Below, in pieces: positions 6,267 through 17,231 of a stretch of DNA of 19,676 nucleotides (positions are counted from its first letter, which is position 1; each line of letters begins with the position of its first letter). Origin of the DNA: an uncultured Rubrobacteraceae bacterium (GTDB lineage Bacteria > Actinomycetota > Rubrobacteria > Rubrobacterales > Rubrobacteraceae). The stretch is taken from NCBI GenBank assembly GCA_902806015.1, contig CADCUZ010000169.1:1-19676 (forward strand). The letters run 5' to 3'. Both the position numbers and the translations under genes were made by a program. A model generated the notes under the pieces. The model had not been told where the DNA came from and made no database searches. It worked only from the letters and a program-made list of their open reading frames with translations.

Positions 6267-7181
6267 TCAGCTTTCGGCTATAAGCTTCGCGAACGACAGG
6301 GCCTCGCGCCACACCCGACCACCGTCTTCCAGGCTCCAGCAGGCGGCGAGTACCGCCTGCGCCAATCCCCACCCGCGGACTCGGGCGCGGTCCAGGCCGA
6401 GCTCCGCGGAGAGGATGTCCAGGCGGCGCTTCGCGAGTCCCCCGGGGTCCGGCGCGCCCAGCGCCTCGACCAGGTTGTGCAGGAGCGCCGCGGTGTCGTA
6501 GGTCGCCTCGCCAACGACGCCCTTGGGGTCGATCGCGAGCCACGGCTGGCGCCGGGCCGCCAGGATGTTCCCCTGATGGAGGTCGCCGTGGAGCACGAGC
6601 GCCTCGCCTTGTGAAGCGAGTAGCTCGTCGAAGAGCCGCTCGGCCTCTTCGACGAGCCGGGTCGGCATCGGGCTCGAGCCTCCCCCGAAACGCCCTCTCA
6701 GACGCTTGAACCCCCGGGCCCAGTCTGAGACGAGGGGGAGGCCGTGGTCTGGCGGGGCGGGATACCAGAGCTTCTTAATCACCCCCGCGGCTATCGTGGT
6801 CGCCTCTTCGTCGTCTCCGACGGCGGTCAGCGGCGTGCCCGGTTCGAGGTGTTCGAGCAACATGGCGCCCCGGTCGGAGTCCAGCTCCAGCAAGCGGCAG
6901 ATGCCCCCGCCGTGGAAGGCCTTTAGCGCTTTGGCCTCCGTCGGGAACCCCTCGTCCTCGGGAAAGGAGAGCTTAAGGACGGCGGGCTTGCCGCCCTCGC
7001 GGACAGCGGGGGCGACCCAGCTGTAGGAGAGGTTCGGAAACGGGGGACTTACCTCGAGGGACCAGCGCCCCTCGAGCTCGCGCGAGAGGGCAGGCAGCCG
7101 GTTAAGCCATGCGGCGCCGGCCTCGCCGTGGAGCGAGATCTGGGTCCGCGCAAAACTTTCGGGGATGGGCGGAAAGCTCAT
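6267..7181 (-). CDS. Aminoglycoside/hydroxyurea phosphotransferase-like kinase (APH(6) family)
   Basis: The 304-residue protein has the protein-kinase-like fold of the streptomycin 6-kinase/hydroxyurea-resistance family. Visible elements are the beta-strand lysine Lys70 (AVLKLSFPED), the conserved Glu-rich MLLEHLEPGTPL (about 107-118), the catalytic loop HGDLHQGNIL (198-207, base Asp200, Asn205) and the metal-binding IDPKG (217-221). Enzymes of this family phosphorylate streptomycin; chromosomal homologues in environmental actinobacteria often have unknown natural substrates. Resistance should therefore not be assumed. The long frame begins at 7271, but the ATG at 7179-7181 is preceded by GAGGAGG at 8 nt spacing. 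It sits 127 nt after doxX and 56 nt before the adenosyltransferase, probably in the same transcript. Confidence 0.88.
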   Translation of the reverse strand: MSFPPIPESFARTQISLHGEAGAAWLNRLPALSRELEGRWSLEVSPPFPNLSYSWVAPAVREGGKPAVLKLSFPEDEGFPTEAKALKAFHGGGICRLLELDSDRGAMLLEHLEPGTPLTAVGDDEEATTIAAGVIKKLWYPAPPDHGLPLVSDWARGFKRLRGRFGGGSSPMPTRLVEEAERLFDELLASQGEALVLHGDLHQGNILAARRQPWLAIDPKGVVGEATYDTAALLHNLVEALGAPDPGGLAKRRLDILSAELGLDRARVRGWGLAQAVLAACWSLEDGGRVWREALSFAKLIAES

Positions 7182-7308
7182 GCTCGGGGCCTCCTCGTGA
7201 GCCGAACGCGTCGGGAAGACGAAACCGCCCGGGGGAGGACGGGCTACTGACCGGTGTGCGCGTCGGAGCATGGCCGGAATACAGGCCGCCGGGGTGGACG
7301 GCCCAAGC

Positions 7309-11606: not shown

Positions 11607-11612
11607 TAGAGT
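11607..11612 (+). promoter_or_regulatory. Possible -10 box (TAGAGT) of the DUF815 ATPase gene
   Basis: TAGAGT lies 25 nt upstream of the chosen ATG, leaving room for a short leader that carries the GGAAGG Shine-Dalgarno sequence. No clear -35 box is present. Confidence 0.35.
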
Positions 11613-11637
11613 GCCGTTCCGTATGGAAGGGATGAGC

Positions 11638-12921
11638 ATGGAGGCTTTGCTGCTGCGGGCGCGGGGGTTGGCCGTGTTGCGCGGGGTCCTCGACTCGCCG
11701 GTGGCGCGAGATTTCCTGGGGTTGATGGGGCTGTTGACGGTGAGGCGGCCGGAGCCGGCGGCGGTGGCCGGGGTTTTCGGACGGCTGTGGGAAGGGCTGG
11801 CCTCGGAGCCGGACCGGATGCTGCCGGATGCCTGGCAGTCGCACCTCGTTGGGCGTCTGCTGGACCACGAGAACCCATTTAGCTTGGGGGCCGAGCGGGG
11901 GGAGGTGGAGTGGAGCGTCCTCCATCAGGCCAAGCGCGACCTCGGTACTCTGCGGGCGCTCTTCGGCCTGGATGCGAGGACGCTCCTCGCCAGGGTCGAG
12001 GAGGCGGTTCCCGCCCTCGCCGAGACCTGGGTCCCCTGGACGGCCCCGGTGCACGAGGGGGACGCGTCGCCGAGGAGCGCGCTCGCCCGGGGACTCGCCG
12101 CTGCCGGAGACTGGGGGAAACAGGCGGAGGACCTGGCGAACCATTTCGCCCGACACGGCGCCGGCATCTTCGGTCGGCACAGGGCATTTCGGTGGGAGGG
12201 GGCCGGTTTGCGGGCCGTGCCAGGCCCCGATCCCATCCGCCTCGACGGCCTGGTCGCCTACGAGCGGGAGCGCGAGCCCCTGGTCGAGAACACGAGGCGG
12301 TTTCTGGCCGGGTTGCCGGCGCACAACGCGCTGCTCTACGGCCAGCCGGGGACCGGCAAGTCCTCCACGGTGAAGGCCCTGCTGAACGAGTACGCCGACC
12401 GGGGCCTGCGGCTCGTCGAGGTAGCCAAGGAAGACCTCGGGTCGCTGCCGCGAGTGCTCGGGTTATTGCGGGGGCGTGGCCCGCGTTTCGTCCTTTTCGT
12501 GGACGACCTCTCCTTCGAGGAACACGAGGTCGAGTACAAGGCGCTAAAAGCTCTGCTAGAGGGGAGCGTCGAGGAGCCGCCCGGAAACGTCAGGGTCTAC
12601 GCAACCTCCAACCGCCGCAACCTGGTGCGCGAGAGCTTCTCAGAGCGTGACGGGGCGGACGATGTCCACGCCCGCGACACGGAGCAGGAGAAGCAGTCGC
12701 TCGCCGCGCGCTTCGGGCTGCGCGTTACCTTCCCCGCCCCGGACCAGTGGCGATACCTGGAGATAGTCGCAGGGCTCGCCAGGAAGCGGGGGCTGAAGCT
12801 GCCGGAGGAGGAGCTGCGGGAGAGGGCGCTTCTCTGGGATCGCTGGCACGCCGGCCGTTCCGGGCGTACGGCCCGCCAATTCGTGGACGAACTGGCGGCC
12901 GGGCTCCTCGGAGGCCGCTGA
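11638..12921 (+). CDS. DUF815-type AAA ATPase
   Basis: The 427-residue protein is a P-loop ATPase of the DUF815 family, whose function is not established. The N-terminal 200 residues are helical. The ATPase core has Walker A GQPGTGKS (235-242), Walker B VLFVDD (285-290) and a sensor-1-like YATSNRRNL (321-329). The segment SFSERDGADDVHARDTEQEKQSLAARFGLRVTFPAP (333-368) is the signature I associate with DUF815. A C-terminal helical lid includes GRSGRTARQFVDEL. In-frame starts exist at 11611, 11623 and 11632. I choose the ATG at 11638-11640 because GGAAGG precedes it by 7 nt. It stands alone; the neighbours on both sides are remnants. Confidence 0.9.
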   Translation: MEALLLRARGLAVLRGVLDSPVARDFLGLMGLLTVRRPEPAAVAGVFGRLWEGLASEPDRMLPDAWQSHLVGRLLDHENPFSLGAERGEVEWSVLHQAKRDLGTLRALFGLDARTLLARVEEAVPALAETWVPWTAPVHEGDASPRSALARGLAAAGDWGKQAEDLANHFARHGAGIFGRHRAFRWEGAGLRAVPGPDPIRLDGLVAYEREREPLVENTRRFLAGLPAHNALLYGQPGTGKSSTVKALLNEYADRGLRLVEVAKEDLGSLPRVLGLLRGRGPRFVLFVDDLSFEEHEVEYKALKALLEGSVEEPPGNVRVYATSNRRNLVRESFSERDGADDVHARDTEQEKQSLAARFGLRVTFPAPDQWRYLEIVAGLARKRGLKLPEEELRERALLWDRWHAGRSGRTARQFVDELAAGLLGGR

Positions 12922-13807: not shown

Positions 13808-14251
13808 CTATGCGACCTCGGGGGGCGCCTCGTTCAGGTTCAGCCAGTACCGTTTGAGTTGCTCGATGGTGTCGATGAACTTCTCGAAGTCCACGGGTTT
13901 TCTGACGTAGGAGTTCGCGCCCAAGCTGTAGCCGTCGAGCACGTCCTGGCGCTCGTTGGAGGACGTGAGGATCACGACCGGCAGGAGCCGCGTGCGCTCG
14001 TGGGAGCGCAGGCGTTCGAGAACTTCGAGGCCGTTGAGCCTCGGCAGCTTCAGGTCTAGCAGGATCAGGTGCGGCATCTCGTCCGCTCCCCGTCCGACGT
14101 AGGTGCCGGAGGCGAAGAGGTAGTTTAGGGCCTCAACCCCGTCGCGAACCACGACGATCCCGCCGGTGAAGTCGTTCTTCGCGAGGGCCCGCAGCATCAA
14201 CAGTTCGTCGTCCGGGTTGTCCTCGACGAGCAGGATCACCTGCTCCCTCAT
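13808..14251 (-). CDS. Single-domain response regulator, Rcp1 type
   Basis: The 147-residue protein is a receiver domain without an output domain. It has the acidic pair Glu10-Asp11 (LVEDNPDDELL), phospho-acceptor Asp66 (ILLDLKLP), Thr96 (VVILTSS) and Lys118 (YVRKPVD). The LVEDNPDDELLMLRALAKN start, the LNYLFASGTYVGR insertion and the C-terminal LKRYWLNLNEAP are typical of Rcp1-like regulators, which usually pair with phytochrome or PAS histidine kinases. It diverges from the REC-PAS-PAS kinase gene, so it may take phosphate from that kinase or relay with its receiver; this is inference. The ATG at 14249-14251 has only GGAG at 10 nt. A 10-codon ORF upstream ends in an ATGA overlap with it. 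Confidence 0.95.
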   Translation of the reverse strand: MREQVILLVEDNPDDELLMLRALAKNDFTGGIVVVRDGVEALNYLFASGTYVGRGADEMPHLILLDLKLPRLNGLEVLERLRSHERTRLLPVVILTSSNERQDVLDGYSLGANSYVRKPVDFEKFIDTIEQLKRYWLNLNEAPPEVA

Positions 14252-14280: not shown

Positions 14281-14408
14281 GGTTCCCTCGCCTTCACGCG
14301 CTCTGCCCATAACCGGTTCACCGGTTGGCGCAATATATTCCTCGGGGCGCCTAGGCGCATCCCGCAAATGGATGATCTTGGCGGTCCGCGTTTTGTATCC
14401 CGCGGCGC

Positions 14409-14452
14409 AAAAAAATCGGGCCGACGAAGGAGGGAGAATGAGCGTCGGCCCG
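14409..14452 (-). terminator. Intrinsic terminator (third hairpin of the cluster)
   Basis: A perfect 10-bp GC-rich stem (14417-14426 with 14443-14452) is followed, one base later on the minus strand, by seven consecutive T. It is directed towards the response regulator, so it would stop transcription entering that gene from the right. Confidence 0.75.
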
Positions 14453-14546
14453 GCTCTGAGAGAGGCCGGCGCCCAGGAGGGGGGAGGGCACCGGCCGCTT
14501 GCACAGGGGTGGCCGGCAAGCCGCGACCGGCGACATCCCGCAAATG
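14409..14546 (-). ncRNA. Candidate small RNA or attenuator: three C-rich-loop hairpins plus terminator
   Basis: Read on the minus strand, three hairpins follow one another. The first has stem GCTTGC/GCAAGC (14516-14521 with 14497-14502) and loop CGGCCACCCCTGT. The second has stem GGCCGGTGCCC/GGGCGCCGGCC (14486-14496 with 14464-14474, one mismatch) and loop TCCCCCCTCCT. The third has stem CGGGCCGACG/CGTCGGCCCG (14443-14452 with 14417-14426) and loop CTCATTCTCCCTCCTT. A run of seven U follows at 14409-14415, making the third an intrinsic terminator. C-rich hairpin loops that can pair with Shine-Dalgarno sequences are the hallmark of the actinobacterial 6C small RNA. I see no sure promoter, so it could equally be a leader attenuator for the response regulator 160 nt downstream. 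The 5' end is a guess. Confidence 0.55.
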
Positions 14547-14576
14547 AGTGATTTATCCGGTTTATCCCCTGCCGAT

Positions 14577-14605
14577 TTGCCCAGGATCGTGGGCGCCGAT
14601 AGAAT
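14577..14605 (+). promoter_or_regulatory. Promoter of the REC-PAS-PAS kinase gene
   Basis: TTGCCC (14577-14582) and TAGAAT (14600-14605) are separated by exactly 17 nt, a good housekeeping-sigma promoter. Transcription would start near 14612, about 63 nt upstream of the kinase ATG. Confidence 0.6.
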
Positions 14606-14674
14606 AGGCCCACGTTTTCGATGGACACGATGCTGCTTATCTCGCCGAAGCGGTTCCCCGGGGGGAATGCCTAG

Positions 14675-16498
14675 ATGGGTGCCCTGCTCAGGTTGCTGCT
14701 CGTCGAAGACTCGGAGAACGACGCGTTGCTCCTTTTGCGGGAGCTCCGGCGCGGCGGCTACGAGCCGGACTTCAGGCGGGTGGAAACCGCCGGTGGCATG
14801 GAGGCCGCCTTGGAAGAGGAGGCGTGGGACCTCGTCATCTCCGACCACTCCATGCCGTCCTTCGACTCACTGGCGGCGCTGGACCTCGTGCGGGGCAAAG
14901 GCTTCGTGGATTTGCCCTTCATCATCGTGAGCGGCCGCATCGGCGAGGACGCGGCGGTCTCGGCCATGAAGGCCGGCGCCCACGACTACATCATGAAAGA
15001 CAACCTGACACGCCTCAACTCCGCCATAGAGCGGGAACTCGGCGACGCGGAGGTTCGCAGGCGCCGCCGCGAGGCGGAGGCGGCGCTACGCGACTCCGAG
15101 ACACGCTTCCGGTTGATGATCGAGCAGTCCCCCCTGAGCATCCAGATCTTCTCCCCCGAAGGTCAGACGTTGCGGGTCAACCGCGCCTGGGAGAAGCTGT
15201 GGGGCGTCACGCTCGACAGGATCCCGGACTACAACGTGCTGCAGGACCCTCAGCTCTTTGAGAAGGGCTTGATGCCCTACATCGAACGCGGATTCGCCGG
15301 GGAAGCGACCGTGATCCCACCGGTCCAGTACGAGCCGGGCGCGACCATACCGGACGCGAGCGAGGTCGCCTATCGCTGGGTACGCGCGTTCATCTACCCC
15401 GTCAAGTCCGCGGACAAAAGCATCCAGGAAATCGTGCTCATCCACGAGGACATTACGGAGCGCCTGAAGGCGGAGGAGGAGCGCAGGCAGGCCGAGGAGA
15501 ACTACCGCTCCATCTTCGAGAACGCGGTGGAGGGCATCTTCCAGGCCACGGCAGACGGGAGGTACTTGACGGCCAATCCCGCCCTGGCTCGCATGTACGG
15601 GTACTTATCGCCGGAGGACTTGCTGGAGCAGGTGTCGAGCATGGGGAACCAGATCTACGCGGACCCCCAGCGCAGGGACGAGTTCGGTCGCCTCATACAC
15701 CGCGACGGCTTCGTGGAGGACTTCGAGATGCGGGTTCGCCGCGGGGACGGGAAGATGGCCTGGACTTCGGTCAACGCGCGCGCCGTCCGCGACGACGAGG
15801 GTAAGGTGGCCGCTTATGAGGGCTTCGTCAAAGATATAACCGAGCAGAAGCGGGCCGAGGAGGCGCTCGGCGAGATCCGGGAGGCCGAGCGCCGCCGGAT
15901 CGCCCGCGAACTGCACGACGTCGTCCTGCAAGATCTCACCTACGCCCTCCAGTCCCTGCAGCTCGTCTCGAGGCTGCCCGAGGGAGACCGCGACGCGGAG
16001 ACGGCCCGGCAGGTGGAGGCCCTCAAGCGGTCGGTCGCGGGGATACGGGACGCCATCTACGACCTGCGGCTAGAGGGCGCCGGAGAGCAGACCCTAATGC
16101 GCTCCCTGGAGTCCATCGTGGAGCTGAACCGCCAGATGTCCCCGGCCTGCTCTTTCGAGCTCACCGCCGTCGGGGACTTCCCGGCCGCGCTTCGCGGCCC
16201 GTTGGCGGTGGATGTCGCACGCGTGGTCCAGGAGGCGCTGGCCAACGTCCGCCGCCACTCCGCCGCCCGCCACGTCACGGTCTCCTTCGAAAGGGGGCGG
16301 GTGGAGGTCCGGGACGACGGCCGGGGTTTCGGGCCGGAGACCCCCGCCGGGATGGGGCTCACGGGGATGCGCGAGCGGGCGCGATCGCTGGGCGGCGAGC
16401 TGGAGGTGAAGGCGGAACCCGGGAGGGGTACGCTCGTGCGACTGCGCATACCGCCCGGCCTCCTGGCCGCAGACGAAGGGCCCGACGGGAAGGCCTGA
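14675..16498 (+). CDS. REC-PAS-PAS histidine kinase (NarL-partner type)
   Basis: The 607-residue cytosolic protein has an N-terminal receiver (about 4-122) with Glu11-Asp12, phospho-acceptor Asp57 (VISDHSMP), Ser86 and Lys108. Two PAS domains follow (about 140-265 and 272-392), ending in the usual DITER/DITEQ motifs. A HisKA_3 dimerisation domain carries His414 (RRRIARELHDVVLQDL). The ATPase domain has its N box at VVQEALANVRRHS (Asn524), G1 at VRDDGRGFG (546-553) and G2 at GLTGMRERARSLGGELEV. No membrane segment is present, so the input is cytoplasmic or comes through the receiver. The ATG is preceded only by a G-run, a weak RBS. The LuxR-type regulator 79 nt downstream is the expected phosphoryl acceptor. 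Confidence 0.95.
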   Translation: MGALLRLLLVEDSENDALLLLRELRRGGYEPDFRRVETAGGMEAALEEEAWDLVISDHSMPSFDSLAALDLVRGKGFVDLPFIIVSGRIGEDAAVSAMKAGAHDYIMKDNLTRLNSAIERELGDAEVRRRRREAEAALRDSETRFRLMIEQSPLSIQIFSPEGQTLRVNRAWEKLWGVTLDRIPDYNVLQDPQLFEKGLMPYIERGFAGEATVIPPVQYEPGATIPDASEVAYRWVRAFIYPVKSADKSIQEIVLIHEDITERLKAEEERRQAEENYRSIFENAVEGIFQATADGRYLTANPALARMYGYLSPEDLLEQVSSMGNQIYADPQRRDEFGRLIHRDGFVEDFEMRVRRGDGKMAWTSVNARAVRDDEGKVAAYEGFVKDITEQKRAEEALGEIREAERRRIARELHDVVLQDLTYALQSLQLVSRLPEGDRDAETARQVEALKRSVAGIRDAIYDLRLEGAGEQTLMRSLESIVELNRQMSPACSFELTAVGDFPAALRGPLAVDVARVVQEALANVRRHSAARHVTVSFERGRVEVRDDGRGFGPETPAGMGLTGMRERARSLGGELEVKAEPGRGTLVRLRIPPGLLAADEGPDGKA

Positions 16499-16577
16499 CG
16501 GCGAGCCCTTCATCACCGATGCTGTTATATTTCCTGTTCGAGTGGGAGCCTTCGGGCCCTTCCCCGAAAGGAAAGAG

Positions 16578-17231
16578 ATGCAGCGAATCTTGCTCGTCGA
16601 GGACCACGCGTCGTTTCGGCAAACGCTCGCGTTTATCTTCGATCAAGAGCCCGAATTCGAGGTGGTCGCCCAGGCCGGGTCGCTTGCCGAGGCCCGCCGG
16701 GACGCGCTGGGCCTTCGGGCCGACCTTGGCGTTATAGACCTCTCGCTGCCCGACGGGGAGGGCGTGGAGTTGATCCGGGAGCTGCGCGAGGCCAACCGCG
16801 AGTTCGCCGCCCTGATACTTACGGCCAGCCTCGACAAGGCGGAGCACGCCCGGGCGGTGGAGGCCGGGGCTGCGGGCGTGCTCCACAAGTCCGCAGACGT
16901 GGACGAGATTCTGGACGCGACGCGACGTCTGGCCGCCGGGGAGACCCTCCTCTCACCGCAAGAACTGATGGAACTACTCCGCCTTGCCGGCCGGAGCCGC
17001 GAAGAAGAGCGCGAAGCGCGGATGAGCATAGACCAGATCACACCCCGCGAACGCGAGGTGCTCCAGAAGCTGGCCGAAGGCCTCTCCAACAAGGAGATCG
17101 CGGACGGCCTCCACATGAGTGTTGACACCGAACGCACCCACATGATGAACATCTTGAACAAGCTGGGCGTCCACTCGCGCTTGCAAGCCCTCCTCTTCGC
17201 CGCCCGCCACGGCCTCGTAAGGCTAAAGTAG
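16578..17231 (+). CDS. NarL/LuxR-family response regulator
   Basis: The 217-residue protein has a receiver domain (1 to about 118) with Glu8-Asp9, phospho-acceptor Asp54 (VIDLSLPDG), Thr82 (ILTAS) and Lys104 (VLHKSADVDE). A linker leads to a LuxR-type helix-turn-helix (about 152-215): TPREREVLQKLAEGLSNKEI, ADGLHMSVDTERTHMMNILN, KLGVHSRLQAL. The recognition helix has ERTHMMNIL where most relatives have VRTHLKNIL. The frame opens at 16542, but the ATG at 16578-16580 follows AAGGAAAGAG and gives the canonical receiver start. It lies 79 nt after the HisKA_3 kinase and is almost certainly its cognate transcription factor. A TATATT near 16527 might give it an extra promoter. It converges on dapF. 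Confidence 0.95.
   Translation: MQRILLVEDHASFRQTLAFIFDQEPEFEVVAQAGSLAEARRDALGLRADLGVIDLSLPDGEGVELIRELREANREFAALILTASLDKAEHARAVEAGAAGVLHKSADVDEILDATRRLAAGETLLSPQELMELLRLAGRSREEEREARMSIDQITPREREVLQKLAEGLSNKEIADGLHMSVDTERTHMMNILNKLGVHSRLQALLFAARHGLVRLK

Follow-up and report, generated by a model that had tools for sequence, protein, structure and literature searches.

The divergent intergenic region between two two-component genes of an uncultured Rubrobacteraceae bacterium contains GC-rich hairpins with C-rich loops, which raises the question of whether this DNA encodes a separate small RNA, or whether its hairpins serve as a leader of the neighbouring gene or as terminators. We addressed this question in the window, by which we mean the whole 19,676-nt stretch of DNA that was analysed (contig CADCUZ010000169.1 of assembly GCA_902806015.1), and in 39 genomes of its order, Rubrobacterales. 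A sequence-only reading had proposed that this divergent two-component intergenic region encodes a separate small RNA whose C-rich loops resemble an anti-Shine-Dalgarno sequence, and our analyses support that proposal, the RNA being conserved in Rubrobacter relatives. We consider it probable that the locus belongs to a family of stress-wired small RNAs in Rubrobacterales, in which a LuxR-type regulator would activate transcription and the RNA would block ribosome-binding sites without Hfq.

A predicted two-hairpin RNA between divergent two-component genes

Two covariance models were used: R1, built from six loci and applied together with a reading of the loci, and R2, which covers just the terminator hairpin and was built from 17 training sequences. 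The window is in both training sets; its RNA is matched by R1 at 14411–14503 and by R2 at 14409–14459. As a training sequence it scored 47.9 bits (E 1.1e-13) against R2, with an 11-pair hairpin, a CCCCCUCCU-type loop and a pyrimidine tail. The features of the locus are as follows.

14409–14500, minus strand: two-hairpin small RNA of ~92 nt (R1 and R2 matches; same locus in 13 of 39 relatives; predicted 5′ end)
14464–14496, minus strand: 5′ hairpin of 11 pairs, loop UCCCCCCUCCU at 14485–14475 (fold; compensatory changes in relatives)
14496–14486/14474–14464, minus strand: stem arms of the 5′ hairpin (fold)
14409–14452, minus strand: 3′ terminator hairpin of 10 pairs, loop CUCAUUCUCCCUCCUU at 14442–14427, tail ATTTTTTT (fold, comparison, R2)
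14452–14443/14426–14417, minus strand: stem arms of the 3′ hairpin, followed by the tail ATTTTTTT at 14416–14409
14534–14552, minus strand: operator A1, ATCACTCATTTGCGGGATG, 0 mismatches, upstream of the small RNA (pattern conserved in relatives)
14508–14513, minus strand: position of the -10 box of the small RNA, reading GCCACC (alignment A9; GATACT in five close relatives)
14358–14376, minus strand: operator A2, ATCATCCATTTGCGGGATG, 2 mismatches, upstream of the REC gene (conserved in A9)
14332–14337, minus strand: -10 box TATATT of the REC promoter, 20 nt past operator A2 (sequence; spacing as at other sites)
13808–14251, minus strand: single-domain response regulator (REC, 147 aa; PF00072, E 8.5e-19)
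14577–14605, plus strand: sigma-70-type promoter of the histidine kinase, TTGCCC-17-TAGAAT (-10 region conserved in five relatives)
14675–16498, plus strand: histidine kinase, REC-PAS-HisKA_3-HATPase, 607 aa (Pfam)
16542–17231, plus strand: LuxR/NarL-type response regulator, REC-GerE, 229 aa, proposed activator at A1 and A2 (Pfam, linkage, co-occurrence)

The minus strand of 14409–14546 folds at -66.2 kcal/mol (z -3.24), and one of 200 dinucleotide shuffles was equally good. Three GC-rich minus-strand hairpins had been described in this stretch, of which two are strong and recur in relatives, whereas the first (loop CCACCCC, ~14530–14510) is promoter DNA: its stretch corresponds in relatives to the spacer and -10 box between the conserved operator and the RNA, and it overlaps the 19-base element at 14552–14534 plus bases beyond. 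C-rich loops, previously counted as three, number two in the window, and the copies at the same locus in 13 relatives have two hairpins (8/13) or one (5/13), the locus L006 having one. The expected transcript shortens accordingly to ~92 nt, with a predicted 5′ end, versus the 138 nt of the stretch initially marked out. The last hairpin is terminator-like, as had been claimed, with a strong GC stem followed by ATTTTTTT, a T7 tail in the window; a simple terminator scan, which admits loops of 3–8 only, did not list it. The first window loop has CCCCCC and the second only CUCCCUCC, some relatives having CCCCCC in both; this second loop is altered (CUCCCUCCUU), and the RNA stems and T tail are intact.

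Three further observations were made in the window. A 15-nt inverted repeat (14219–14233 and 14696–14710, 462 nt apart) falls within the beginnings of the two REC-domain genes, which most likely share it as coding sequence. A protein like aminoglycoside/hydroxyurea kinases (PF04655, E 7.6e-49) is encoded at 6267–7271 on the minus strand, and a DUF815 AAA+ protein (PF05673, E 5.7e-94) at 11611–12921 on the plus strand.

Conservation of the locus and the strand of the RNA

Relatives were reached via the histidine kinase, and of 80 loci only the Rubrobacter-like ones were followed further. The RNA was identified at the same locus in 13 of the 39 genomes of the order (R1 together with reading of the loci), plus L006 and the window. 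R1 gave 15 matches, of which two (L113 and L115) arose by chance at the given place, with true hairpins nearby, and one (L114) is without operator A; the 12 locus-type matches and genome G022, added later, make up the count of 13. In all 13 genomes the histidine kinase gene begins upstream and runs on the opposite strand (12 by motif, G006 through a kinase search), and the single-domain REC gene lies downstream on the same strand in 12 (in G006 another gene intervenes, and in G022 the stretch is too short to show it). The best LuxR-type regulator match of the genome is at most 5 kb from the small RNA in 11 of 11 genomes with sufficient contig, and in the remaining two the contig ends just past the kinase (G006) or within it (G016). 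In locus L105 (genome G004), the REC gene adjoining the RNA has an early in-frame stop in this assembly (~1803, minus strand).

Compensatory changes in relatives, an alignment check suggested along with the original proposal, were found for both hairpins. For the terminator stem, a MAFFT alignment of 15 sequences that was not fitted to the structure (A3) has two-sided changes in six of 11 pairs, and its covariation of 0.234, vs 0.165 in shuffles, was reached by none of 500 shuffles. Further pair types were not exceptionally numerous, as 133 of 500 shuffles had as many. Alignment of 57 copies to R2 (A8), which is fitted to the structure, has two-sided changes in nine of 11 stem pairs and a covariation of 0.276. 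Shuffles gave 0.137 and none of 500 attained the value of the alignment; slid versions gave no more than 0.104. The 57 copies were chosen, with L261 and L278 (near duplicates), L281, L282, L287–L289, L128, L133 and L188 omitted. In the 5′ hairpin, whose arms were assigned by hand, 67 of 68 cells are standard pairs when L103 is left out, and C-G/U-A exchanges occur.

The wobble pairs bear on the strand. G-U outnumbers A-C by 13 to 3 in eight core pairs and by 7 to 0 in the 5′ hairpin, both favouring the minus strand; over all ten pairs counted the two are equal, at 25 each. The 3′ tail is 97% pyrimidine (58% T and 39% C). On these sequence patterns the minus strand is strongly favoured as the RNA strand. 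A functional plus strand would act as a CsrB/RsmZ-like sponge whose GGA loops bind CsrA, and the plus strand does fold (z -2.03), with loops GAAGGAGGGAG and CAGGAGGGGGGAG, but CsrA had no match in the 39 genomes, in a search whose control was positive in three named genomes, and the promoter, terminator tail and core wobble pairs all point to the minus strand. We regard such a sponge as extremely improbable.

A minus-strand attenuator or leader of the REC gene, which had been offered as the alternative to a separate RNA, would agree with the position of the RNA upstream of that gene, on the same strand and with a terminator at its end. This reading is disfavoured because the RNA has its own terminator, past which the REC gene has a second operator (14358–14376, conserved in five relatives) and a -10 box of its own (TATATT, 14337–14332). 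In addition, a gene that appears by eye to be DUF4870-like lies in G006 (L007, L090) between the RNA with its second operator and the REC gene. An attenuator is therefore very improbable here, and a separate small RNA is the reading that we pursue below.

Operator A and its candidate activator

Operator A is the near-palindrome ATCACTCATTTGNGNGATG, with halves ATCACTCA-TT-TGAGTGAT, given also as ATCACTCA-TT-TGNGNGAT. With up to two mismatches, ATCACTCATTTGNGNGATG had 174 matches in 29 of the 39 genomes of the order vs three for the reversed pattern, counts in which a palindromic site can score on both strands. Allowing at most one mismatch, it was found in 25 of the 39 genomes and in five of 357 genomes of other Actinomycetota, with one match in each of the latter, and the reversed control gave none. 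The spacing between operator and promoter was analysed at 92 distinct sites (≤1 mismatch) from the fetched loci, a subset of all sites. A -10-like hexamer lies 20–21 nt downstream at 49 of these sites, compared with two such hexamers on the mirror side at the same offsets. If the -10 box is placed at -12 to -7, the palindrome would be centred near -42, the position of a class II activator.

A -10 box just upstream of the RNA is a usual, non-universal trait of the family, and the window copy has the operator but not the -10 box. At spacings of 19–22 its best match to TATAAT is 1/6, whereas 89 of the 92 operator sites score at least 3/6 there (best of four offsets). Since the -10 box is degenerate, the window copy may be silent or weak, or hit by a sequence error.

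As judged by eye from translations, the genes behind operator A encode, besides the small RNA, REC, DUF4870-like, calcium-binding repeat, zinc-ribbon, glutaredoxin-like, amidase-like and LuxR-type proteins. The zinc-ribbon-like protein, with two C-x-x-C pairs by eye, was seen behind operator A in L120, L126, L173, L180, L183, L192 and L203. At least two matches to operator A were present in all 17 genomes with a regulator match of ≥275 bits vs seven of the 22 others (Fisher 7e-6; Spearman 0.63 over the 39 genomes, uncorrected for phylogeny). This co-occurrence makes the adjacent LuxR-type regulator the likely candidate for binder and activator at operator A. The small RNA was not detected at that locus in seven of the 17 genomes having the close regulator and operators, and many copies of the small RNA are without operator A.

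A multi-copy family in Rubrobacterales

The terminator hairpin is widespread in the order. R2 matched 36 of the 39 Rubrobacterales genomes at E ≤ 0.01, and at E ≤ 1e-6 it identified 54 strong copies, training copies included, in 25 genomes, with a maximum of nine per genome; opposite-strand matches of R1 and R2 were counted as mirror matches of the same hairpins. Outside the order, seven of 357 genomes matched at E ≤ 1e-4 under stricter filters, the best match (G063) having a loop without UCCU. Among the 57 aligned copies, 47 have CCCCCTCCT in the loop and 54 have CCTCC, numbers that are partly circular as R2 was trained on such loops. A search of twenty loci with family copies against Rfam returned nothing over gathering.

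The sequence upstream of the copies is informative as to whether they are transcribed on their own. Removal of L281, which is outside the order, and of one duplicate from 47 upstream regions left 45 copies outside the window's locus, 33 of which have a -10-like hexamer at most 24 nt upstream of the hairpin, vs 12.6 ± 2.8 (maximum 21) in shuffles; most of these copies therefore look like their own transcription units. The upstream elements vary among copies and include operator A, a second palindrome, RGGACNAWTGTCCYATATA, and ECF-sigma-like spacings (by eye). Within a group of copies the distance to the second palindrome does not vary: it is 48 nt in one group of five and 54 nt in another of four. 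Operators of this second type were found in 12 of the 39 genomes at ≤2 mismatches. None of the eight genomes that have the second operator at ≤1 mismatch has two or more matches to operator A, vs 24 of the 31 others (Fisher 1e-4, likewise uncorrected for phylogeny); when all 12 second-operator genomes are considered, p = 0.03.

Several other C-loop RNAs were observed. A second RNA type, with a long 5′ hairpin and then a C-loop terminator hairpin, lies behind operator A in L128 (1500–1660) and L133, of genomes G024 and G029, and C-loop RNAs with stems unlike those of the window lie behind operator A (L288, L289) or a variant of it (L278, L279). ECF-sigma-like spacings (TAAC-N-CGTCT; TGAAACC-N-CGTAG, by eye) precede C-loop copies L238, L244, L263 and L268, as well as L241 and L266, so that alternative sigma factors may likewise drive members of the family.

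The abundance of the copies could be taken to mean that the hairpins are only efficient terminators or REP-like repeats, their C-rich loop being trivial or specific to the element and no free RNA acting in trans. The terminator shape of the last hairpin, the stem sequence common to the 54 strong copies and target tests that established none are consistent with this. Against it stand the -10-like hexamers in 33 of 45 copies, compared with 12.6 in shuffles, the fixed distances of the second palindrome, and a loop that is conserved like the stem (partly circular) while the bases between vary. We consider it unlikely that the copies are terminators or repeats alone. As regards the family of small RNAs that we prefer, it is possible, at somewhat less than even likelihood, that it constitutes a translational brake common to the order, in which one anti-Shine-Dalgarno seed is placed behind many stress promoters, and in which the two-component branch kept the small RNA as its operator changed from ATCACTCATTTGAGTGAT to RGGACAAATGTCCY between genome sets.

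Proposed mechanism and search for targets

The structure and conservation of the RNA, the geometry of operator and -10 box, the two-component linkage and the multi-copy family are read directly from the genomes, and it is from these that we infer the identity of the binding protein, the activation, the stress signal and the block of translation. In the proposed mechanism, the histidine kinase (14675–16498) and the LuxR-type regulator (16542–17231) would form one two-component system, whose phosphorylated regulator would bind the two half-sites of operator A near -42 and activate promoters in the class II manner, including the ones that drive the small RNA and the single-domain REC gene. The RNA, having one or two hairpins of which the last is its own terminator, would expose a loop that mimics the anti-Shine-Dalgarno tail of 16S rRNA, CCUCCU. 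Given this resemblance, the natural assumption is that the loop pairs with G-rich ribosome-binding sites; such pairing would stop translation without Hfq and make the small RNA the repressing arm of the response. Related copies behind other operators and promoters would potentially allow many inputs to act through one seed. Hfq had no match in the 39 genomes, in a search whose control was positive in five named genomes.

Tests for targets were essentially negative, with one weak lead. The pattern AGGAGGGGG-N2-9-ATG had 282 matches in the 39 genomes vs 232 for its reversed form, and the 282 include complements of the small RNAs. Twenty sites picked from the 282 were read. Among them, L299 and L300 encode homologous proteins (47% identity over 207 residues) with a Tat-like signal by eye, both starting after AGGAGGGGGGAATG, which can pair with the RNA loop along ten bases. 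These proteins are, as a weak lead, candidate targets of the small RNA. Two other possibilities were rejected. For feedback on the histidine kinase, loop pairing with its ribosome-binding site fell below 5% of shuffles in none of nine loci (lowest 0.077), and another of the twenty sites, common to four genomes (L290–L293), proved to be inside coding sequence (...QEGDFYGGW...).

Significance and comparison with known small RNAs

To our knowledge, little is known of the small RNAs of deep-branching actinobacteria that lack Hfq. A search of the open-licence literature for Rubrobacter and small RNA found no report of such RNAs, and neither the family nor its operator and spread appear to have been described in that literature or in Rfam; the working principle is already known from Listeria and the alphaproteobacteria. 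The Rubrobacter group is tolerant of radiation and desiccation, and if the family is a translational brake common to the order, the group would have a general, Hfq-free RNA arm of its stress response. The family also provides a predicted regulon for the group, and a directly testable case of minimal one-hairpin RNAs that might choose their targets by anti-Shine-Dalgarno pairing in GC-rich cells.

No Rfam family was over gathering in the window. A permissive search of 14300–14700 gave five sub-threshold matches, one of them on the plus strand and the other four, all to small RNA families, on the minus strand, and a search of twelve relatives' loci at E ≤ 5 gave five matches, none on the RNA. 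Kinship to 6C had been suggested, and 6C RNAs are defined by a pair of hairpins whose loops each contain six or more C. That the window RNA is a divergent 6C member would be in keeping with its two hairpins, the C runs in its loops and its actinobacterial host, but the covariance-model check did not bear the kinship out, RF01066 being unlisted at E ≤ 10 for the window region and for the relative L108. No relative among the 39 was over the RF01066 cut-off, a weak test as none of 14 control genomes passed either, and seven weak 6C matches elsewhere in related genomes had no C-loop hairpins by eye. The Rubrobacterales RNA differs further in its common single-hairpin, multi-copy forms, with an extra UCCU in the loop. 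Membership in 6C is thus quite improbable. 6C is described as actinobacterial with two C-rich loops, like the window RNA, and, for mycobacteria and Streptomyces, as a neighbour of the Ms1 gene (PMC6582537).

The top weak match of the window was Scr3202 of Streptomyces (RF02833; 32.7 bits, E 0.0053), which shares two hairpins and C-rich loops. This match probably reflects shared composition, since it is below the gathering score of 52 and the relative L108 reached only 18.3 bits. The sX13 RNA of Xanthomonas resembles the mode of action proposed for the window RNA in that it acts without Hfq through C-rich loops on G-rich motifs near start codons (PMC3771888); it is set apart, by description, by its three stems and its different phylum.

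Parallels to the proposed wiring exist in the alphaproteobacteria and in Listeria. The alphaproteobacterial ar14/NfeR1 and cuckoo RNAs (ar7, CcsR) have repeated anti-Shine-Dalgarno hairpin motifs like the window RNA and a two-component wiring like the one proposed for it; NfeR1 (ar14) has three redundant anti-SD motifs, is Hfq-independent and forms a feedback loop with NtrBC (PMC10746234). Its motif, CCUCCUCCC, occurs in three hairpins (PMC10746234), and the phylum is a different one. The exact cuckoo motif CCUCCUCCC is absent from the window loops UCCCCCCUCCU and CUCAUUCUCCCUCCUU, and the cuckoo models stayed far below gathering for the window (ar7 26.3 of 60 bits, ar14 23.9 of 58.8, CcsR1 15.6 of 65.3). 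LhrC of Listeria monocytogenes (RF00616) is present in five copies, all LisRK-dependent, whose UCCC motifs bind Shine-Dalgarno regions, one of these motifs being in the terminator loop (PMC4132741). The Rubrobacterales RNA is likewise multi-copy and C-rich, and its counterpart to two-component dependence is operator and regulator linkage only. It differs from LhrC in having one or two hairpins only, in its palindrome near -42 and adjacent LuxR-type regulator, in that its genomes gave no Hfq match, and by model, RF00616 scoring 16.2 of 110 bits in L108 and being unlisted for the window. Potentially, the family is the Rubrobacterales equivalent of LhrC and the cuckoo RNAs: it has many copies, a clear operator and a two-component system linked to it.
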